NCBI GenBank assembly: GCA_028343315.1
Contig: JAOLYI010000018.1
Span: forward strand, 1 to 7,457
DNA: 7,457 bases
Direction: 5' to 3'
From: Candidatus Pelagibacter sp.
GTDB taxonomy: Bacteria; Pseudomonadota; Alphaproteobacteria; Pelagibacterales; Pelagibacteraceae
How positions within the stretch are numbered: the first letter of the stretch is position 1; each line of letters starts with the position of its first letter. A model generated the notes under the pieces. That model saw nothing but the letters and a program-made list of their open reading frames with translations. It did no database searches and was not told the DNA's origin. Shown here in pieces: positions 1-7,457 of the stretch. The translations under genes were made by a program, and so were the position numbers.

Positions 1-560
1 TAAAAAATAATATTAAACTCATCTATTCTGCTACATCTGCTTCTTTGGGAAATAGAGGAAATGATAAAAATTTATCACCCTATGCTTTTTCAAAATCAAA
101 AAATTTAGAATTACTTGAAAATTTAAAAAAATGGTTCAATTTTAAATATGAAGTAATTTATTTTTATAATGTGTATGGCCCTCATCAAATATGCAGAGGA
201 GATATGTCAACTGTTATAGGAATATTTGAAGATCATTACAGAAAAGGCAAACCACTACCTGTTGTGAAACCGGGTACTCAATCTAGAAGATTCACTCACA
301 TATATGACACAGTCGATGTTTGTTACCTGGCTTGGAAAAAAAACCTTTGTAGACACTATAGTATAGCCAATAAAAAATCGTATTCAGTTCTAAAAGTAGC
401 AAAAATGTTTAAATCGAGTATTAAATTTTTACCAAAAAGACTAGGTGAAAGATACGCGTCCGCTCTTATAAATGAGAATTTAACCAACAGAATGTATAAG
501 CACTTTGGAAAAATTAATTTAAAGAATTATATAAACGAATTTATTAATAAAAATAATTAA
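1..560 (+). CDS. NAD-dependent epimerase/dehydratase, extended SDR family (5'-truncated by window edge)
   Basis: The reading frame is open from position 3 without a start, so the N-terminal third, including the Rossmann GxxGxxG nucleotide-binding loop, lies outside the window. About 185 residues are visible. The active site is recognisable: a Ser/Thr-rich strand YSATSASLG (visible residues 8-16), then the catalytic Tyr-Lys pair in YAFSK (27-31, Tyr at 81-83), then the FYNVYGPHQ segment and the RRFTHIYDTVDV segment typical of UDP-sugar epimerases and dTDP/GDP-sugar dehydratases. These NAD(P)-dependent cytoplasmic enzymes remodel nucleotide sugars for LPS, O-antigen or capsule. The exact sugar cannot be told from this part. 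A TTG at 45-47 is not a plausible start, because conserved family sequence continues upstream of it. The stop at 558-560 overlaps the stop of the convergent apt gene. A GT9 glycosyltransferase at the other end of the window also suggests surface-glycan surroundings. Confidence 0.9.
   Translation, partial: KNNIKLIYSATSASLGNRGNDKNLSPYAFSKSKNLELLENLKKWFNFKYEVIYFYNVYGPHQICRGDMSTVIGIFEDHYRKGKPLPVVKPGTQSRRFTHIYDTVDVCYLAWKKNLCRHYSIANKKSYSVLKVAKMFKSSIKFLPKRLGERYASALINENLTNRMYKHFGKINLKNYINEFINKNN
557..560. other. Overlapping convergent stop codons (TTAA)
   Basis: The epimerase stop (558-560) and the apt stop (557-559 on the other strand) share the self-complementary TTAA. As at the other end of the locus, no intrinsic terminator is visible. 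Confidence 0.9.
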
Positions 561-1084
561 TGCCCAGGAAATTCAATTAAACTTTCAGTTTTATAGCCTT
601 TATTTTTTAATAAATTATTTCCTGGTAAATCAAAAAGATTAATAACAAAGATAAAAGCAGCTACATTCCCACCAGACACTTCAATTAAATTAGCTGCAGC
701 TTCAGCAGTTCCTCCTGTAGCTATTAAATCATCTATAATTAGAATTTTTTCATTTTTCTTAATAGAGTCCTTATGAACTTCAATAGTTGCTTTTCCATAT
801 TCAAGTTCAAAATCAACAGAGTGAACAGCAGCGGGTAATTTATTTTTTTTCCTAAGAAGTATAAACGGTTTTTCTAAAATATATGAAACTGTGGATGCAA
901 AGACAAAACCTCTGGACTCTATTGCTGCAACTTTATCAAAATCAATTTTTTTAGCTATTTCAATAATTTTGTCATTTGTGAATTTAAAAGCTTCTGCATT
1001 TTTAATTAAAGTGGTTATGTCTCTGAATAAAATTCCCTTTTTTGGATAATCAGGAATTGATCTAATATGTTTTTTTAAGTCCAT
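557..1084 (-). CDS. apt: Adenine phosphoribosyltransferase
   Basis: Apt converts adenine and PRPP to AMP and pyrophosphate in the cytoplasm. The 175-residue product is close to the usual length (E. coli Apt is 183) and aligns throughout: IPDYPKKGILFRDITTL near the N-terminus (10-26), ESRGF (56-60), LEYG (94-97), the PRPP-binding loop ILIIDDLIATGGT (114-126) with its two Asp, and the typical C-terminus EFPGH. I chose the ATG at 1084, which has a GAAG six bases upstream. A TTG twelve bases further out (1096) would add four residues that the family does not need. The gene is divergent from mtnP, separated by 40 bases. MtnP releases adenine, so Apt is the natural partner that recovers it, and shared regulation is plausible. 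The adenine made here is probably mostly a by-product of polyamine synthesis. That link is inference; the enzyme identity is secure. Confidence 0.96.
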   Translation of the reverse strand: MDLKKHIRSIPDYPKKGILFRDITTLIKNAEAFKFTNDKIIEIAKKIDFDKVAAIESRGFVFASTVSYILEKPFILLRKKNKLPAAVHSVDFELEYGKATIEVHKDSIKKNEKILIIDDLIATGGTAEAAANLIEVSGGNVAAFIFVINLFDLPGNNLLKNKGYKTESLIEFPGH

Positions 1085-1124
1085 TATTAACTTCAAGTTT
1101 TAACAAAAAAGCATTAATAATTAA
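1085..1124. promoter_or_regulatory. Divergent apt/mtnP promoter region
   Basis: These 40 bases must carry the promoters or upstream elements of both apt (leftward) and the six-gene mtnP operon (rightward). For the + strand the best pair I see is TTCAAG (1092-1097) and AATAAT (1116-1121) with an 18-base spacer. This would start transcription at about the two tandem ATGs (1125 and 1128), giving a leaderless or nearly leaderless mRNA. TTAACA at 1100-1105 resembles a -35 box but has no well-spaced -10 partner. On the - strand I see only a weak TATTAA-like -10. There is no room for a riboswitch and no clear operator palindrome. The region is certain by position; the individual boxes are speculative. 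Confidence 0.4.
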
Positions 1125-2006
1125 ATGATGAAAAAAAGAAAACTAGGGATAATTGGTGGCAGTGGACTATATAAAATGGAAGGATTTAAAAATGCCAAAT
1201 GGAAAAAAATTAAAACTACCTGGGGAATCCCTTCAGATGAAATTTTATTAGCAAAATTAGGCTCAGAAGATATTTGTTTCATCCCTAGGCATTCTAGAGG
1301 ACATAAAATTAACCCTTCTAATATAAATTTCAGAGCAAATATTGATGCAATGAAACAGCTTGGTGTTACGGACATAATATCTGTCTCAGCAGTAGGATCT
1401 TTGAAAGAAAATTTGGAGCCTGGAAAGTTTGTTATAGTTGATCAGTTTATTGACAGAACTTTTTCAAGATTAAAAACTTTTTTTGACGAAGAAATTGTAG
1501 CACATGTCTCTATGGCAAAACCAACAAGTCCTGGACTTTCCGATTGTTGTCAGTCAGCCCTTAAAAAATTAAATATTAAGAATCAAAAAGGCGGCACTTA
1601 TGTTGTTATGGAAGGTCCCCAGTTTTCTACATTAGCAGAGTCAAATTTATATAGGTCTTGGGGTGCTGATGTAATAGGCATGACAAATATGCCTGAAGCA
1701 AAATTAGCTAGAGAAGCAGAAATTAGATATTGCACTGTTGCAATGGTAACAGATTATGATTGTTGGCACCCTGATCATGATGAAGTGGATGTGAGTATGG
1801 TTATAGAAACATTAATGAAAAATGCAGCTAATGCTCAAAATATGATTAAGGAAGTAATAAAAACATTTAAAAACTTTTCAGTAGAAAAAGATCCAGCTAA
1901 TAATTGCTTAGATGTAGCTATTATTACAGACCCAAAACTAAGATCAAAAAAAACAATCAAGAAATTAAAAAATATTGCGGGTAGAGTTTTAAATAAAAAA
2001 AATTAA
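1125..2006 (+). CDS. mtnP: S-methyl-5'-thioadenosine phosphorylase
   Basis: MtnP splits 5'-methylthioadenosine with phosphate into adenine and 5-methylthioribose-1-phosphate. The 293-residue protein matches the family in length and along its sequence: phosphate-binding GIIGGSGLY (8-16), PRHSRGH (54-60), INFRANI (67-73), VSAVGSL (87-93), DQFIDRT (106-112), MEGPQFST (162-169), the MT segment of the sugar site (186-187), and TDYDCW (209-214). The two Asp of that last motif (210, 212) bind the 6-amino group of adenine in the human enzyme, which marks adenosine-type rather than guanosine/inosine-type phosphorylases. Two ATGs stand in tandem at 1125 and 1128 and no Shine-Dalgarno sequence precedes them, so the start is uncertain by one codon. 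Family members may also accept 5'-deoxyadenosine. It is the first gene of the operon, and its TAA overlaps the ATG of mtnA by one base, implying translational coupling. The product adenine is handled by the divergent apt. Confidence 0.96.
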   Translation: MMKKRKLGIIGGSGLYKMEGFKNAKWKKIKTTWGIPSDEILLAKLGSEDICFIPRHSRGHKINPSNINFRANIDAMKQLGVTDIISVSAVGSLKENLEPGKFVIVDQFIDRTFSRLKTFFDEEIVAHVSMAKPTSPGLSDCCQSALKKLNIKNQKGGTYVVMEGPQFSTLAESNLYRSWGADVIGMTNMPEAKLAREAEIRYCTVAMVTDYDCWHPDHDEVDVSMVIETLMKNAANAQNMIKEVIKTFKNFSVEKDPANNCLDVAIITDPKLRSKKTIKKLKNIAGRVLNKKN

Positions 2007-3076
2007 TGAAAATTGATGGTAAAAGTTACAGAACGATATGGTTTGAAAATAATATAGTTAAAATTATTGATCAAACAAAACTTCCCCATCAATTTATTAT
2101 TAAGGGTTTAAAAACAGTTAAAGACTCTATAAACGCCATTAAAACTATGGAAGTAAGAGGCGCTCCATTAATAGGCGCTACTGCAGCATACGGTTTAGTT
2201 TTATCTATTAATGAAAATAATGATTTATCTTTTTTAAAACAATCTAGTGAACAACTTATAAATTCAAGACCAACAGCTATAAATTTGAAATGGGCTGTAG
2301 ATAGAATGATGAAGAAACTATCTGGCGTTAATAATAAAGACATATTGAATATTGCATTAGAAGAAGCAAAAGCAATTGCTGAAGAAGATGTAGGCTTTTG
2401 TAAAAATATAGGTTTAAACGGTCTTAAAATAATTGAAGAAATAGCTAATAAAAAAAAAGATACAGTAAATATTTTGACTCATTGCAATGCAGGCTGGTTA
2501 GCAACCATAGACTGGGGTACAGCGACATCACCAATTTATCACGCGCATCAAAAAGGAGTTAAAGTTCATGTTTGGGTTGATGAGACAAGACCAAGAAATC
2601 AAGGAGCTAATTTAACTTCTTATGAATTAAATGAAGAAGGTATTCCTAATACAATAATTGCAGATAACACTGGAGGAATTTTAATGCAAAGAGGCCAAGT
2701 TGATATGTGCATTGTTGGAACTGATAGAACTTTATCTAATGGCGATGTTTGTAATAAAATTGGAACATATCTAAAAGCACTAGCTGCAAAAGATAATAAT
2801 GTTCCATTCTATGTAGCATTACCGAGCTCAACAATTGATTGGAATATTAAAGATCATAAAGAAATACCTATTGAAGAAAGAAATTCTGAAGAACTTTCAC
2901 ATGTTGAAGGATTAGATAAAGATAATAAATTACAAAAGATTTTAATTTATCCACAAAAAAGTAAAGCAATGAACTTAGCTTTTGATGTTACACCTGCTAA
3001 GTATGTAACAGGATTGATAACAGAAAAAGGTGTTTGTGAAGCATCAGAACAAGGATTGAAAGGTTTATTTAAATGA
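2006..3076 (+). CDS. mtnA: S-methyl-5-thioribose-1-phosphate isomerase
   Basis: MtnA isomerises the aldose methylthioribose-1-phosphate to the ketose methylthioribulose-1-phosphate, the step directly after MtnP. The 356-residue product belongs to the aIF2B/MtnA fold. The N-terminal motif MEVRGAPLIGATAAYG (48-63) is typical. The catalytic Cys160 (in LTHCNAG) and Asp240 (in VGTDR) fall at the same numbers as in Bacillus subtilis MtnA, and RPRNQGANLTSYEL (195-208) and DNTGG (220-224) are also conserved. These features separate it from true translation-initiation aIF2B subunits. Some MtnA enzymes also accept 5-deoxyribose-1-phosphate. The ATG overlaps the mtnP stop by one base and there is no clear Shine-Dalgarno sequence, so initiation probably depends on mtnP translation. 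The 3' end overlaps the next gene by ATGA. A nine-A run at 2450-2458 lies inside the gene without breaking the frame. Confidence 0.96.
   Translation: MKIDGKSYRTIWFENNIVKIIDQTKLPHQFIIKGLKTVKDSINAIKTMEVRGAPLIGATAAYGLVLSINENNDLSFLKQSSEQLINSRPTAINLKWAVDRMMKKLSGVNNKDILNIALEEAKAIAEEDVGFCKNIGLNGLKIIEEIANKKKDTVNILTHCNAGWLATIDWGTATSPIYHAHQKGVKVHVWVDETRPRNQGANLTSYELNEEGIPNTIIADNTGGILMQRGQVDMCIVGTDRTLSNGDVCNKIGTYLKALAAKDNNVPFYVALPSSTIDWNIKDHKEIPIEERNSEELSHVEGLDKDNKLQKILIYPQKSKAMNLAFDVTPAKYVTGLITEKGVCEASEQGLKGLFK
3058..3063 (+). promoter_or_regulatory. Ribosome binding site of the exported hydrolase-like gene
   Basis: GAAAGG lies nine bases before the ATG at 3073, inside the end of mtnA. It is one of the better Shine-Dalgarno matches in the operon and supports the ATGA-overlap start, which also places a well-formed signal peptide at the very N-terminus. 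Confidence 0.55.
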
Positions 3077-4080
3077 AAAAAATATTATTAATTTTAAGTT
3101 TTCTAATTATTGCGAATATTGCTGAAGCAAGAGATTGTACAAGTGGAAATATTAAAGGCGATGCATTTATTTATAGTGATGGAAAAAAAGTAAAAGTAAT
3201 TCAAGGCACAGATATTCCTAATCCTGCTAATAAAATTATAATGATTTTTAATAAAGGTGGATGGAAAGTAGAAAGTAAGTGGGGTGAATGTAAAGACCAT
3301 ATACCAAAACAATTAGGACAATTATCTGGAAAAAAAATTAAAGGAAAAGAATTAGTTTTTATGTTGAATGGAAATCTACATAAAGCCGGAGGAGCTGATG
3401 GAGGAGCCTGTGGGTGGAAGTTTAAAGGAGCATGGCATCAAGATTGGTATGATTGCGTAATAGCTGATTGGGGAATTCCAAAACGAGTTGATGTTAATAA
3501 AGAACTTATCGAAAAATTAGTTTCTAAAGGAACTCCAAGAAATCAAATATTTATGTCGGGTTTATCTTGTGGTGGAATAGACACATTAAGACATAAAGGC
3601 CTACATCCCAATGATTTTAACGCAACTATTTCATTCATGCCTAATTGTTGGGATACTAAACCCAATACTCCTTTGAGAAAAATGCAAATTGATGAATTAA
3701 AAAGTTTTAAACGTATAGATGCGCTGGTATTTACAAGCCCAGTGGACGGCGAGCCTGACTGGCACAGCAATACCGAATGGATGAAAAAAGATTTAGAAAA
3801 TATTCCAGGTATAAAAATGATTGATACCCCTGGACACACTGGAAAAAACATTATTGTAAATGGTAAAAAATGTAATGTGAAAGAGAAAATGAAAGGCGGT
3901 TGGGAAATTAAATGGCCTGAAGGTAAAACTAAACTAACAAGTGAAAAAAAGTTTATCACATTAGATAAGAAACAAAAAAAGGAAATGAAGAAAAAACCTA
4001 TGGGACATTACTTGGTATCATACAGCTGCTTTAATTATTATCATCCGGAAATAGTCAAATATATTGATTCAAGGTTATAG
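3073..4080 (+). CDS. Exported alpha/beta-hydrolase-like protein of unknown function
   Basis: I do not recognise a named family. The 335-residue protein begins with a classical signal peptide: KK, a hydrophobic core LLILSFLIIANI, and a likely signal peptidase I site after AEA (residue 19). The mature part has eight Cys (22, 73, 113, 128, 166, 192, 267, 319), an even number that suits periplasmic disulfides. Residues 159-168 (IFMSGLSCGG) look like the strand-nucleophile-elbow of an alpha/beta hydrolase with Ser165 in GxSxGG. Asp225 (SPVDGEPDW) and His255 (TPGHTG) are candidates for the acid and histidine of a triad, and GNLHKAGGADGG (100-111) could shape the oxyanion side. A Lys-rich stretch (about 285-308) precedes the C-terminus. 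It sits between mtnA and the aldolase with overlaps at both ends, so it is a true operon member although its compartment differs from that of its neighbours. Codons 217-235 are unusually GC-rich. The hydrolase fold is inference; export is well supported. Confidence 0.8.
   Translation: MKKILLILSFLIIANIAEARDCTSGNIKGDAFIYSDGKKVKVIQGTDIPNPANKIIMIFNKGGWKVESKWGECKDHIPKQLGQLSGKKIKGKELVFMLNGNLHKAGGADGGACGWKFKGAWHQDWYDCVIADWGIPKRVDVNKELIEKLVSKGTPRNQIFMSGLSCGGIDTLRHKGLHPNDFNATISFMPNCWDTKPNTPLRKMQIDELKSFKRIDALVFTSPVDGEPDWHSNTEWMKKDLENIPGIKMIDTPGHTGKNIIVNGKKCNVKEKMKGGWEIKWPEGKTKLTSEKKFITLDKKQKKEMKKKPMGHYLVSYSCFNYYHPEIVKYIDSRL
4071..4074 (+). promoter_or_regulatory. Ribosome binding site supporting the GTG start of the aldolase
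   Basis: AAGG ends five bases before the GTG at 4080. The combination of this site, the TAGTG stop/start overlap and the match of the N-terminus to FucA-like enzymes decides the non-ATG start. Confidence 0.45.
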
Positions 4081-4724
4081 TGAGCAAACTTAAAACTGAT
4101 GTAATTAGATATTCAAAAAAACTTAATATAACTAATTTATCAGCTTTAAGGTCAGGAAATATTTCAGTTAGAGCTAAAGAGAAGGGCGTAGATGGTTTTT
4201 ATATAACTCCATCTGGAATGAAGTACGCTTCATTGAAGACCAAAGATATTGTTTTTGTTTCACTAAAAGGACTCTTTGATAAAAAAAAGAATAAACCGTC
4301 CTCTGAGTGGAGGTTTCACCAAGATATTTATGTGAATAAAAAAGAAGCTAAAGCTATAGTTCATGCTCATTCAACATGCGCTACGGCCGTATCCTCTCAT
4401 CAAAAAAACATTCCAGCTTTTCACTACATGGTTGCAGTTGCTGGCGGTGAAGATTTAAAATGTACTAAATATGCAACTTTTGGAACCAAGCAGCTTTCAA
4501 AAAATATTATAAAAGCACTAAAAAATAGATCAGCCTGTTTGATTGCAAATCACGGACAAGTTGCGTTTGGAGATAATTTAGAAAAAGCTTTTGAGCTTGC
4601 TCAAGAGATCGAAAATATTTGCCATCAATATATAAATGCCCTAAGAATCGGAATACCTAAAATACTTTCTAAAAAAGAAATGAAAATTGTTTTAGGAAAA
4701 TTTAAAAATTATAAAAAAGGATAA
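4080..4724 (+). CDS. FucA-like class II aldolase, probable methylthioribulose-1-phosphate aldolase (Ald2 type)
   Basis: This is a zinc-dependent class II sugar-phosphate aldolase of 214 residues, resembling E. coli L-fuculose-1-phosphate aldolase (about 215) along its whole length. With a constant offset of three it keeps the FucA catalytic residues: Glu76 in PSSEWRFH, zinc ligands His95 and His97 (VHAHS) and His158 (NHG), and Tyr116 in HYMVAVAGG. The phosphate-site motifs SGNISVR (25-31) and ITPSG (42-46) are present too. No fucose genes are nearby; the genes just upstream make methylthioribulose-1-phosphate. FucA-like enzymes called Ald2 cleave that compound to dihydroxyacetone phosphate and methylthioacetaldehyde in the DHAP shunt of Rhodospirillum rubrum and some E. 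coli. The main alternative is MtnB, the dehydratase of the same superfamily, but the PSSEWRFH block favours an aldolase. Family certain, substrate inferred from context. Translation starts at GTG and overlaps the preceding stop by one base. Confidence 0.9.
   Translation: MSKLKTDVIRYSKKLNITNLSALRSGNISVRAKEKGVDGFYITPSGMKYASLKTKDIVFVSLKGLFDKKKNKPSSEWRFHQDIYVNKKEAKAIVHAHSTCATAVSSHQKNIPAFHYMVAVAGGEDLKCTKYATFGTKQLSKNIIKALKNRSACLIANHGQVAFGDNLEKAFELAQEIENICHQYINALRIGIPKILSKKEMKIVLGKFKNYKKG
4713..4720 (+). promoter_or_regulatory. Ribosome binding site of speD-speE
   Basis: AAAAAAGG ends ten bases before the ATG at 4731, inside the last codons of the aldolase. It is a weak Shine-Dalgarno match at a slightly long distance. 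This is the only junction of the operon where stop and start do not overlap (6-base gap). Confidence 0.35.
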
Positions 4725-4730
4725 TTTTAA

Positions 4731-5771
4731 ATGATTAAAGTAGGGGAGCACATCACTTTAGATTTCCTTGGTGTTAAAAAAGATTATTCACCAGATTTTT
4801 ACGAAAAGGTAATCTACAAAATAGCAAAAGCTGCAAAAGTAGAAATTTTAAATGTAGCCTCACATAGATTTGAACCACAAGGTTTTACGCTCGTTGCTTT
4901 ATTGTCTGAAAGTCATTTTAGTTTCCACACATTTCCTGAAAGAGGCGTCATTAGTTTTGACTTTTTCACTTGTGGCAAAGTAAATCCAAAAGTAGCTTTA
5001 AAAATTCTAAGAAATGAGATTGAACATGACAGAGTAGTCACCAATGCTTTTGATAGAAGCAGTATTGGACTATACGATGATATTTATAGTACACCTGGTC
5101 AAAAGAAATACTATGTAGTTAAAAATGTGCTAGAAAAGTTTACTTCAAAAGTGGGACAGTTTGTTGAAGTAATGGATATTGAAGAATTTGGACATGCCTT
5201 ATTTATAGATCACGAAATACAAGTAGCAGAAAAAGATGAAAAAATTTATAGCTCAACTTTTTTTAAATCTAGTTATGATTTAAGTAAAAAAAATAACAAC
5301 GTTGCTATTATAGGTGGCGGTGATGGTGGAGTGGCTCGAGCATGTTTGGAAAATAACTCAAATTATATAGACTGGTTTGAACTTGATCCTGAAATAGTTG
5401 ATGCCTGTTATCGTCATTTACCAAAAGTTTGTTCTAAGGTTAAAAAAAGCAATGTCATAAATACTTTTTGGGGAGATGCATTTAAAAGCATTAAGGAGAT
5501 AGAAGACTCTAAGTATGATAAAATCTTCGTAGATTTAAATGATGACCAGTATTGTATAGACCTTGCTAAAAAAAATATGAAAGGTTTAAAAAGAATTCTA
5601 AAAAAAGGTGGAGTTATCACCGCGCAAGTTGGAAGTAACGATAAAAAGCCTAAACAAGTTGAAAATTGGTGTAAAGTTCTAACTAATAGCTTTGGAAACG
5701 TTAAACTGTCAGCCGCCTACGTACCAAGTTTTGACTGTAATTGGAATTTTGCCTCATCTATAATGAAGTAA
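4731..5771 (+). CDS. speD-speE: Fused S-adenosylmethionine decarboxylase-spermidine synthase
   Basis: One 346-residue protein joins two steps of spermidine synthesis. Residues 1 to about 118 are a prokaryotic SpeD: SESHFSFHTFPE (59-70) holds the self-cleavage site between Glu60 and Ser61, where Ser61 becomes the pyruvoyl cofactor. His66 and Cys81 (FFTCG) match the processing and catalytic residues of Thermotoga SpeD with an offset of two. Residues from about 125 are a SpeE aminopropyltransferase: Gln164, Tyr173, the nucleotide loop IGGGDGG (194-200), the acidic strand end FELDP (216-220), GDAF (248-251), and DLNDD (268-272) at the place of the catalytic D-x-x-D-P. Self-cleavage would leave a small beta chain and an alpha chain carrying the SpeE domain. 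The reaction releases MTA, the substrate of mtnP in the same operon. The SpeE site is divergent: YHEM/YQEM is replaced by YSST and the usual DPxGP loop is missing, so the accepted amine is uncertain. No putrescine-forming gene is in the window. Confidence 0.93.
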   Translation: MIKVGEHITLDFLGVKKDYSPDFYEKVIYKIAKAAKVEILNVASHRFEPQGFTLVALLSESHFSFHTFPERGVISFDFFTCGKVNPKVALKILRNEIEHDRVVTNAFDRSSIGLYDDIYSTPGQKKYYVVKNVLEKFTSKVGQFVEVMDIEEFGHALFIDHEIQVAEKDEKIYSSTFFKSSYDLSKKNNNVAIIGGGDGGVARACLENNSNYIDWFELDPEIVDACYRHLPKVCSKVKKSNVINTFWGDAFKSIKEIEDSKYDKIFVDLNDDQYCIDLAKKNMKGLKRILKKGGVITAQVGSNDKKPKQVENWCKVLTNSFGNVKLSAAYVPSFDCNWNFASSIMK

Positions 5772-6568
5772 TGTTTCGTGTATCTTGTATTCAATTAAGA
5801 TCTAATAATCATATTCTTCAAAATTTAAAAAAAACTGAAAAATTTATTATTAAAGCTGTTAAACAAAAAACAGATTTTATCATAACTCCAGAAGTTTCTT
5901 CTTTATTTTCACTTAATAAAAAACAATTACTTAAAATATGTAAATCTATGAAAGAGGATATTTACTTAAATGGAATTAAATTATTGGCAAAAAAATATAA
6001 AAAATGGATTTTAATTGGCTCTTCAATAATAAAAATTTCAAAAAATAAATTAGTCAATCGATCCGTGTTAATTGATAAAAATGGAAAAATTAGAACTTAC
6101 TATGATAAAATCCATATGTATGACGTTGTATTAAGTAAGAAAGAAAAATATTTTGAGTCAAAAACTTTTGAAGCAGGAAATAAAGTTAAATCCTTTAATC
6201 TTCCTTGGGGAAAATTAGGTCTTTCAATTTGTTATGATTTGAGATTTCCAAATCTATATCGAAAATTATCTAAAGCAGGTTCATTATTTTTGTCAGTTCC
6301 TTCAGCTTTTACAGAAACAACAGGAAAAAAACATTGGCATTCTCTATTAAAAGCACGAGCTATTGAAAACTTCTGTTATGTTTTCGCACCAGCGCAAGGT
6401 GGATCTCATTACAATGGTAGAAAAACTTTTGGTCACTCGATGATTGTCTCACCAGATGGAAAAATCTTAAAAGAATTAAATAAATCAGAAGGTGTGATTA
6501 CAGTATCAATTGATCCAAATTTATCAAAAAAATTAAGATCAATTATACCTAGTTTAAAATCAGACTAA
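5771..6568 (+). CDS. Nitrilase-superfamily amidase, Nit1-like
   Basis: This 265-residue C-N hydrolase has the complete catalytic triad Glu41 (TPEVS), Lys113 (YDKIHMYD) and Cys154 (SICYDLRFP). The block KIHMYD followed by FESKTFEAGN (128-137) and CYDLRFPNLYRKL is typical of the Nit1 branch, whose characterised members are deaminated-glutathione amidases acting in metabolite repair. Related omega-amidases (Nit2/MtnU) hydrolyse 2-oxoglutaramate formed in the last transamination of methionine salvage, which fits the operon but less well the CYDLRFP motif. The ATG at 5771 overlaps the speD-speE stop as TAATG and starts exactly at the family's N-terminal strand (FRVSCIQL). A TTG at 5741 would put a ten-residue extension inside the preceding gene and is rejected. 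The last gene of the operon, its stop touches that of the convergent DUF6165 gene. Substrate unknown; family certain. Confidence 0.9.
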   Translation: MFRVSCIQLRSNNHILQNLKKTEKFIIKAVKQKTDFIITPEVSSLFSLNKKQLLKICKSMKEDIYLNGIKLLAKKYKKWILIGSSIIKISKNKLVNRSVLIDKNGKIRTYYDKIHMYDVVLSKKEKYFESKTFEAGNKVKSFNLPWGKLGLSICYDLRFPNLYRKLSKAGSLFLSVPSAFTETTGKKHWHSLLKARAIENFCYVFAPAQGGSHYNGRKTFGHSMIVSPDGKILKELNKSEGVITVSIDPNLSKKLRSIIPSLKSD

Positions 6569-6571
6569 TTA
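6566..6571. other. Abutting convergent stop codons (TAATTA)
   Basis: The nitrilase stop (6566-6568) and the reverse-strand stop of the DUF6165 gene (6569-6571) form the palindrome TAATTA with no base between them. I see no GC-rich hairpin followed by a T-run on either side, so neither transcript has an obvious intrinsic terminator here. Confidence 0.9.
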
Positions 6572-6964
6572 TTCGTAGGATTTAACTTCTTTGATATTTG
6601 AGCCAAGCGCGTTGTTGATAGTTAATTTAATTTTAGCTCTTTCATCATTAAATTTGTAAACGTTTCTCGCAAGTGAAATAAACTTTTCCCCAAAATCATT
6701 ATTTTTTTCTGCTAATCTTTTCCCGTCTTCAATATCCCATAGTTTTAAATTTATTTCTTTTAAATCATTGATATGTTTTTTAATTGCAGCTTGATCGGGG
6801 ATAAATTTTTGCATTGTTTGATTTAAAGATGACAATTCTTTTTCAATATCAGCTAGTTTATCTTTATTTGATATTTTGACTTTTTTTATTTCTAATATTG
6901 TGATCTTGTCAATAAGCTCACCAGCTGAAATTTCTGCCAATATTTTGTCTAATTTATTGCTCAT
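6569..6964 (-). CDS. DUF6165-type conserved protein
   Basis: A 131-residue soluble protein without signal peptide or membrane segment. I match it from memory to the uncharacterised DUF6165 group through its characteristic blocks: EISAGELIDKITILEIK (11-27), LWDIED (75-80), FGEKFISLARNVYKFNDERAKIK (91-113), and the C-terminal GSNIKEVKSYE (121-131). The sequence is mostly charged and helical, and residues 20-75 have a heptad-like pattern that could form a coiled coil. No catalytic motif is visible and no function should be assumed. In my experience members are often found near glycosyltransferase and polysaccharide genes; here the gene is divergent from a GT9 glycosyltransferase, 46 bases away. 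The ATG at 6964 is the only good start; no strong Shine-Dalgarno sequence precedes it. Its stop abuts the nitrilase stop. Confidence 0.85.
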   Translation of the reverse strand: MSNKLDKILAEISAGELIDKITILEIKKVKISNKDKLADIEKELSSLNQTMQKFIPDQAAIKKHINDLKEINLKLWDIEDGKRLAEKNNDFGEKFISLARNVYKFNDERAKIKLTINNALGSNIKEVKSYE

Positions 6965-7010
6965 ATTATTCTTTTACTATATCACTCTTTAATTATACTC
7001 AGAATTAATA
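6965..7010. promoter_or_regulatory. Divergent DUF6165/GT9 intergenic region
   Basis: This 46-base AT-rich gap separates two divergent starts. For the + strand, TATACT (6994-6999) is a good -10 candidate with a mediocre TTTACT (6973-6978) upstream at a 15-base spacing. It would give a leader of only a few bases before the GT9 ATG. The leftward candidate promoter shares the same bases. No Shine-Dalgarno sequence precedes the GT9 start. Confidence 0.35.
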
Positions 7011-7017
7011 ATGTCAA
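6992..7017 (-). promoter_or_regulatory. Candidate promoter of the DUF6165 gene
   Basis: Read leftward, this stretch has a perfect TTGACA (reverse complement of 7012-7017) and a perfect TATAAT (reverse complement of 6992-6997), 27 bases before the ATG at 6964. The spacer is only 14 bases, shorter than the usual 16-18, so activity is uncertain. The -35 hexamer lies over the GT9 start codon. Confidence 0.35.
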
Positions 7018-7457
7018 ATATATTAATTATCAAACACGGTTCTCTTGGAGATTTAATTCAAGCCAATGGTGCAATTAGAGATATAAAAAATTTTTATAAA
7101 AATCGAAAAGTTTTTCTACTTACCGCAGAACCTTATTCTATCTTTATGTCAGAATGTCCTTATCTAGATGGAGTTATTATTGATAAAAGATTACCTAGAT
7201 GGAATTTATTTTATTTAAGTAAATTAAAAAAGCAACTAGCAAGATATGAATTCTCAAAAGTTTTTGATTTACAAAATTCAAGTCGAACAAAATTTTATAA
7301 AAAATTTATTTTAAAAAATTCAGAATGGTCATCTTCAGAAACCAGTTTGGAACCAGGCCAATCTAAAAGAGATTTTGATCAAGATCCTGTTTTAGATCGA
7401 ATAGAGGTACAATTAAAAAAAAGCGGTATTGATCCTGAGTTTACGAAGAACATAGAT
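7011..7457 (+). CDS. Glycosyltransferase family 9 (heptosyltransferase-like), 3'-truncated by window edge
   Basis: The frame runs open from the ATG at 7011 to the last base, giving 149 residues of a protein normally about 300-350 long. The N-terminus NILIIKHGSLGDLIQANGAI (3-22) is the hallmark of the GT9 family, in which the GSLGD loop lies at the acceptor side of the first Rossmann domain. A second strand and helix follow at VFLLTAEPY (35-43), and FDLQNSSRTKF (about 87-97) is also typical. GT9 enzymes such as WaaC/WaaF transfer heptose or related sugars from nucleotide donors to the growing LPS core at the cytoplasmic face of the inner membrane. The donor site lies in the missing C-terminal half, so the sugar cannot be inferred. 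It is divergent from the DUF6165 gene and probably belongs to a surface-glycan cluster continuing to the right. Confidence 0.88.
   Translation, partial: MSNILIIKHGSLGDLIQANGAIRDIKNFYKNRKVFLLTAEPYSIFMSECPYLDGVIIDKRLPRWNLFYLSKLKKQLARYEFSKVFDLQNSSRTKFYKKFILKNSEWSSSETSLEPGQSKRDFDQDPVLDRIEVQLKKSGIDPEFTKNID

Follow-up and report, generated by a model that had tools for sequence, protein, structure and literature searches.

Gene content and organization of the locus

The analysed DNA stretch of the SAR11 bacterium (Pelagibacterales) Candidatus Pelagibacter sp. (the window; 7,457 nucleotides, contig JAOLYI010000018.1, positions 1 to 7,457, forward strand) carries a run of plus-strand genes in which a fusion of S-adenosylmethionine (AdoMet) decarboxylase and aminopropyltransferase, SpeD-SpeE, lies downstream of genes of families that remove the by-product of its proposed reaction, 5′-methylthioadenosine (MTA), with apt divergent from the first gene of the run. 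The 10 window proteins were scanned with Pfam and NCBIfam, and families were assigned from these scans and from solved-structure relatives, as follows.

557-1084, minus strand, divergent from mtnP: apt, adenine phosphoribosyltransferase (TIGR01090, 199.6 bits, cut-off 185.85)
1085-1124, no strand: apt/mtnP divergent spacer, 40 bases
1125-2006, plus strand: mtnP, MTA phosphorylase (TIGR01694, 313 bits, cut-off 274.85; NF006492, 444 bits, cut-off 437)
2006-3076, plus strand: mtnA, methylthioribose-1-phosphate isomerase (TIGR00512, 428 bits, cut-off 279, and solved relatives)
3073-4080, plus strand: accessory alpha/beta-hydrolase-like gene, 335 amino acids (aa), weak model with fold matches
4080-4724, plus strand: class II aldolase, proposed methylthioribulose-1-phosphate aldolase with an Ald2/DrdA-like role (PF00596, 164 bits, cut-off 22.2)
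4731-5771, plus strand: speDE, SpeD-SpeE fusion of AdoMet decarboxylase and aminopropyltransferase (PF02675, PF17284 and PF01564, all over cut-off)
5771-6568, plus strand: nitrilase-family gene, last in the run (PF00795, 169 bits)

Solved MTA phosphorylases were relatives of the window MtnP (best E-value 2e-78), and solved relatives were found for both SpeD and SpeE of the fusion, which is encoded in a single frame with PF02675 at residues 7-109 and PF17284 plus PF01564 at 119-339. Its SpeD half passed TIGR03330; its SpeE half reached 96 of 250 bits and so stayed under the equivalog cut-offs for spermidine synthase. On the basis of these family models and solved relatives, the genes, coordinates and identities named in an original prediction made from the sequence alone were confirmed, as was the minus-strand, divergent position of apt; the gene at 3073-4080 had been missed from its list. 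The tight overlapping junctions it described were also found, with overlaps of 1 base (mtnP/mtnA), 4 bases (mtnA/3073-4080 gene), 1 base (3073-4080 gene/aldolase) and 1 base (speDE/nitrilase), and a 6-base gap between aldolase and speDE.

A terminator scan of the window gave one site, within mtnP, against 2.9 in shuffled sequences, and a promoter scan gave 27 sites against 38.7; since fewer sites were found than in the shuffles, these scans provide no argument either way. At gathering score, the window gave no match to a riboswitch or any other Rfam element. The genes of the run are likely to be co-transcribed in the clade of the window, but this is not the essential feature of the arrangement.

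Gene order among near relatives

Gene order was compared, as the original prediction had suggested, in a near-relative set comprising the window and the best 80 of 528 loci ranked by aldolase similarity (88-96% aldolase identity), those 80 being titled Pelagibacterales, Pelagibacteraceae or Ca. Pelagibacter. The neighbourhood proved to be conserved: the visible genes among apt, mtnP, mtnA, aldolase, speDE and nitrilase kept their order and strands in 81/81 loci, with all six visible in 76 and the remaining five (L007, L009, L010, L012, L023) cut by contig ends. Divergent apt was present in 77/81 loci, the other four being cut by contig ends. Because the set was selected by aldolase similarity, it cannot show aldolase loss.

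The apt/mtnP spacer measured 38-45 bases in 76 of the 77 loci with both genes visible, the exception being L041, where the apt match starts late. Many of the near relatives examined carried a conserved CTTCAA...TAACAAAAAA stretch in this spacer (window 1085-1124), possibly a shared promoter or operator. At L020:5893-6931, speDE was present in two overlapping pieces in different frames, i.e. a frameshift or a sequencing error.

Exchange of the disposal module within the order

A sample of 97 genomes of the order was searched with SpeD-SpeE, aldolase and mtnP and their neighbourhoods were read, after which both replacement genes described below and mtnA were searched. Full-length SpeD-SpeE was found in 44/97 genomes, with weak matches only in two more. 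Upstream of speDE, three types of disposal module were found. In type 1 (31/44) the aldolase is the single-domain protein. Type 2 (8/44) has mtnP-mtnA and, on the opposite strand between mtnP-mtnA and speDE, a 677-aa fusion of aldolase and short-chain dehydrogenase (SDR). In type 3 (5/44) one nucleosidase-like gene of 176-178 aa replaces mtnP, mtnA and the aldolase. Close relatives of two types within one genome were found in 0/44, when whole genomes were considered. The replacement aldolase/SDR passed NF006192 over its full length (residues 1-677; 886 and 908 of 639 bits).

Divergent apt was visible upstream in 37/44 genomes. Six loci (L081-L084, L117, L121) do not extend far enough for it to be seen, and none was found in L112; L122 has apt 3 kb from mtnP. 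Other genes, amounting to about 9 kb, separate mtnA from the aldolase in G091 and in G077. The mtnP positions of G097, G002, G005 and G003 were taken from the mtnP search, and the sequences of G040 and G073 end before mtnP.

The changes have been repeated. In a 46-row SpeD-SpeE tree (the 44 genomes, the window and L002; L020 with its split speDE left out), the three types require a minimum of nine changes (the mean for shuffled labels was 12.4, and 1/200 shuffles came as low), and supported branches force six changes for the aldolase label. In the MtnA tree (41 rows; 12/38 inner branches starred), six changes are required for the aldolase/SDR label, and four of these are forced. In G093 the identity to the window was 84% for mtnP and 87% for mtnA, and 67% for SpeD-SpeE. 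Recombination may shape these gene trees, and recombination between conserved flanks may account for replacements in the same place. The predicted linkage of MTA production to MTA removal has thus outlasted repeated changes of the removal module itself.

As a hold-out, 240 previously unused genomes from a draw of 337 were searched for SpeD-SpeE, mtnA and the nucleosidase-like gene. Among the 207 with SpeD-SpeE, 190 had mtnA, seven the nucleosidase-like gene, none both, and ten neither, so that 197/207 had one or the other; among the 33 without SpeD-SpeE, six had mtnA and one the nucleosidase-like gene. Six of the ten exceptions were examined (G397, G402, G485 and G565 were left out), and five of these run into contig ends; in four of the five, part of the aldolase is still visible.

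When SpeD-SpeE was sought beyond the order in 289 alphaproteobacterial genomes, eight matched at an E-value of 1e-20, of which three (61-94% identity) were also in the order sample and five had 25-29% identity.

Identity of the aldolase

In an alignment of the window aldolase to FucA, the positions of E73, H92, H94 and H155, which we take to be the catalytic positions of FucA, were retained. In DrdA, Glu76 is reported as a metal contact (PMC6079011). An identity as the dehydratase MtnB was rejected by model score (66.7 of 137 bits). Classical methionine salvage was rejected as well, as its marker acireductone dioxygenase (ARD) was over cut-off in 0/97 genomes, with one weak match, and the aldolase is not MtnB, which was sought among the window proteins only; this classical route seems to be unavailable in the order sample.

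Proposed pathway and its rivals

SpeD-SpeE would form decarboxylated AdoMet and transfer its aminopropyl group, yielding spermidine, spermine and thermospermine with release of one MTA per transfer. MTA is an inhibitor of aminopropyltransferases. It would be split by MtnP into adenine and methylthioribose-1-phosphate, or removed by the nucleosidase-like enzyme in type 3; MtnA would isomerise the methylthioribose-1-phosphate, the aldolase would cleave the product to dihydroxyacetone phosphate (DHAP) and 2-(methylthio)acetaldehyde, and Apt would convert the freed adenine to AMP. The individual steps were rightly regarded in the original prediction as established biochemistry, and the removal route has already been named the DHAP shunt (PMC5893883); its steps in the window are assigned from gene families and context. 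For the window fusion we infer polyamine activity by analogy with the two characterised Ca. Pelagibacter fusions of HTCC1062 and HTCC7211, which gave spermidine in E. coli deleted for speD and, in further E. coli strains, spermine/thermospermine (PMC11107197). Spermidine as the predicted product is too narrow.

Two parts of the original prediction were not supported. The unit is not self-contained: the Pfam and NCBIfam scans matched no putrescine-making or AdoMet-making family among the 10 window proteins, and no window gene was matched to a step in the further metabolism of the aldehyde. Nor can fixed proportion through one mRNA be the general reason for the arrangement, because the aldolase/SDR is antisense in 8/44 genomes and apt lies on the other strand; accessory genes also often interrupt the run.

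The whole is probably best explained by SpeD-SpeE coupled to an exchangeable MTA disposal module upstream of speDE. The linkage would be retained because MTA must be removed, with the disposal module exchangeable and some version of it nearly always accompanying SpeD-SpeE, and the finding of replacement disposal genes in the same place suggests that the two jobs, polyamine synthesis and by-product disposal, belong together. We infer all substrates of the window enzymes, the fate of the aldehyde and the reason for the linkage from families and gene context. A bolder form of the proposal we would put somewhat below even chances: the exchangeable disposal slot would be obligatory, mtnP-mtnA with the aldolase/SDR fusion would add a new branch to the DHAP shunt, in which cleavage of methylthioribulose-1-phosphate and oxidation of 2-(methylthio)acetaldehyde to (methylthio)acetate occur in one protein, and the constant MTA sink would keep SpeD-SpeE running forward, contrary to the reversal proposed for SAR11 SpeE (PMC8437039).

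Several results weigh against coupling to an exchangeable module. The single-domain aldolase of the window scored higher with FucA than with DrdA among solved relatives (163.8 against 136 bits), and its best NCBIfam and PDB matches were FucA, yet under the FucA model cut-offs; as its score is nearer to FucA, the substrate assignment rests on context. The nucleosidase-like gene passed PF01048 and stayed under the MtnN-type cut-offs (PRK05634, 94 of 129; TIGR01704, 40 of 73.8), and it may work like a nucleosidase without being filed as MtnN. The ARD search was incompletely sensitive, matching 5/14 controls, over cut-off in two. The hold-out scores presence genome-wide, not place, and its association of SpeD-SpeE with disposal (Fisher p about 2e-20) is uncorrected for relatedness. 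In G622 (L146:6935-8007), the sixth exception examined, speDE is still adjoined by mtnP and by the aldolase end, mtnA and most of the aldolase being gone through loss or an assembly fault. Finally, 7/53 genomes of the order sample and 7/33 of the hold-out carried a disposal gene or fragment despite having no full SpeD-SpeE; the seven of the order sample comprised two with an apt-mtnP-mtnA-aldolase/SDR row, four with a full-length nucleosidase-like gene and one with a fragment. Disposal therefore serves more than SpeD-SpeE.

The last point favours a view in which the module mainly salvages 5′-deoxyadenosine from radical AdoMet enzymes, or nucleosides from outside, and its position next to speDE has to do with the handling of AdoMet by-products in general rather than with polyamine synthesis. 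MtnP, MtnA and Ald2-type aldolases are reported to use both substrates (PMC10986504, PMC8102628, PMC6079011), but disposal tracks SpeD-SpeE in the hold-out (197/207 with it against 7/33 without) and the modules adjoin speDE, and we consider such a main role unlikely. Less easily set aside, and still doubtful, is the explanation of the shared place as a by-product of homologous recombination between flanks (apt, speDE) in streamlined, order-conserving genomes, the linkage itself being functionless. It agrees with the G093 identities given above, with the gain and loss of accessory genes in the same slots, and with the frequent conservation of the downstream DUF6165 and glycosyltransferase genes. 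It would explain the place, but neither the single disposal type in nearly every SpeD-SpeE genome nor the lack of any in most genomes without SpeD-SpeE. It appears very improbable that the class II enzyme at 4080-4724 is a sugar aldolase of the fuculose-1-phosphate type standing outside MTA disposal: its top matches are FucA, but it misses the FucA cut-offs, in the loci read its gene adjoins mtnA or speDE, a different class II aldolase substitutes for it in eight genomes, and in two speDE-less genomes that aldolase stands in the same row as mtnP and mtnA.

If polyamine synthesis is accompanied by one of three exchangeable modules, genomes would predict which strains return DHAP and adenine, which are left with methylthioribose and which possibly make (methylthio)acetate; carbon and reduced sulfur would then meet different fates under the three modules. 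SAR11 rank among the most abundant marine bacteria, and their SpeE has been proposed to run backwards, breaking down spermidine (PMC8437039); a constant MTA sink would bear on this reversal, as the reaction requires available MTA.

Accessory and flanking genes

No Pfam or NCBIfam match was obtained for the product of the 3073-4080 gene, which, read by eye, contains a GLSCGG stretch and begins with a signal-like segment. Its AlphaFold2 model is weak (mean predicted local distance difference test score 63.9), with carboxylesterase and thioesterase fold matches, and the protein may be called alpha/beta hydrolase-like and nothing finer. Its family has 18 members in the 81 near-relative loci including the window, i.e. 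it occurs in 17/80 other loci, in either the mtnA-aldolase or the mtnP-mtnA slot.

The mtnA-aldolase slot was occupied in 26/80 loci, and extra genes were present in the mtnP-mtnA slot in 52/77. Occupants of the former belonged mostly to two unrelated hydrolase-like families whose N-termini are signal-like; counted across the two slots, these families have 18 and 12 members. A Tautomerase_3-like gene (PF14832, 146-148 aa, e.g. L008:4435-4881) was located in the mtnP-mtnA slot in 46 of the 77 loci with both genes visible, the window not being among the 46, and L036:1750-5759 has an insert of about 4 kb between mtnP and mtnA with five genes, including DUF6165-like and surface-sugar-type genes.

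For the last gene of the run, the top library match was the deaminated-glutathione amidase model NF043013, under cut-off (214.5 of 500 bits); a role as putrescine source, in the form of N-carbamoylputrescine amidase (TIGR03381), was rejected at 88 of 410 bits. Downstream of the run are a DUF6165 gene (window 6569-6964, minus strand) and a glycosyltransferase-9-like gene, placed likewise in most loci seen. In many genomes outside the clade of the window (within L089-L128, e.g. L105:7595-9857), three amino-acid-type ATP-binding cassette transporter genes follow directly after speDE, possibly encoding a polyamine or by-product transporter.

Comparison with known systems

A Ca. Pelagibacter SpeD-SpeE fusion was reportedly treated by Green et al. 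in 2011 (cited in PMC8437039). The characterised fusions of HTCC1062 and HTCC7211 resemble that of the window in two-domain architecture and belong to the same order; their neighbour genes are not discussed in the available part of PMC11107197. In titles and abstract openings, no published description of the SAR11 neighbourhood or of the swap was found; PMC8437039 has single mentions of mtnP, mtnA, methylthioadenosine phosphorylase, methylthioribose and nucleosidase outside its main text, maybe in the supplement. A physiological link of polyamines to adenine has a precedent, since in another bacterium spermidine synthesis is reported to feed adenine recovery through MTA cleavage (PMC13192272).

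Kinase-or-phosphorylase, isomerase and aldolase trios have been reported in six phyla, and the 5-deoxyribose disposal clusters share this composition with the window (PMC6079011, the available part of which names neither SAR11 nor a polyamine gene). MtnP, MtnA and Ald2 together constitute the DHAP shunt (PMC5893883, PMC10986504), for which Rhodospirillum rubrum, Rhodopseudomonas palustris, Bacillus thuringiensis and some E. coli use MtnP or a nucleosidase plus kinase, MtnA, and Ald2/DrdA. The window has MtnP and MtnA together with an aldolase of class II in common with these systems, here in one run, and differs in adding the MTA-producing SpeD-SpeE, while its relatives have the aldolase/dehydrogenase version. 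The latter resembles the RhaD-type bifunctional aldolase/SDRs (NF006192, TIGR02632), the former of which it passes; its position with mtnP and mtnA suggests methylthioribulose-1-phosphate rather than rhamnulose-1-phosphate as substrate, and no such fusion acting in an MTA route was found in the published literature searched. The chemistry and the parts were thus already known, and what is new here is the swap, i.e. an exchangeable disposal slot beside SpeD-SpeE.

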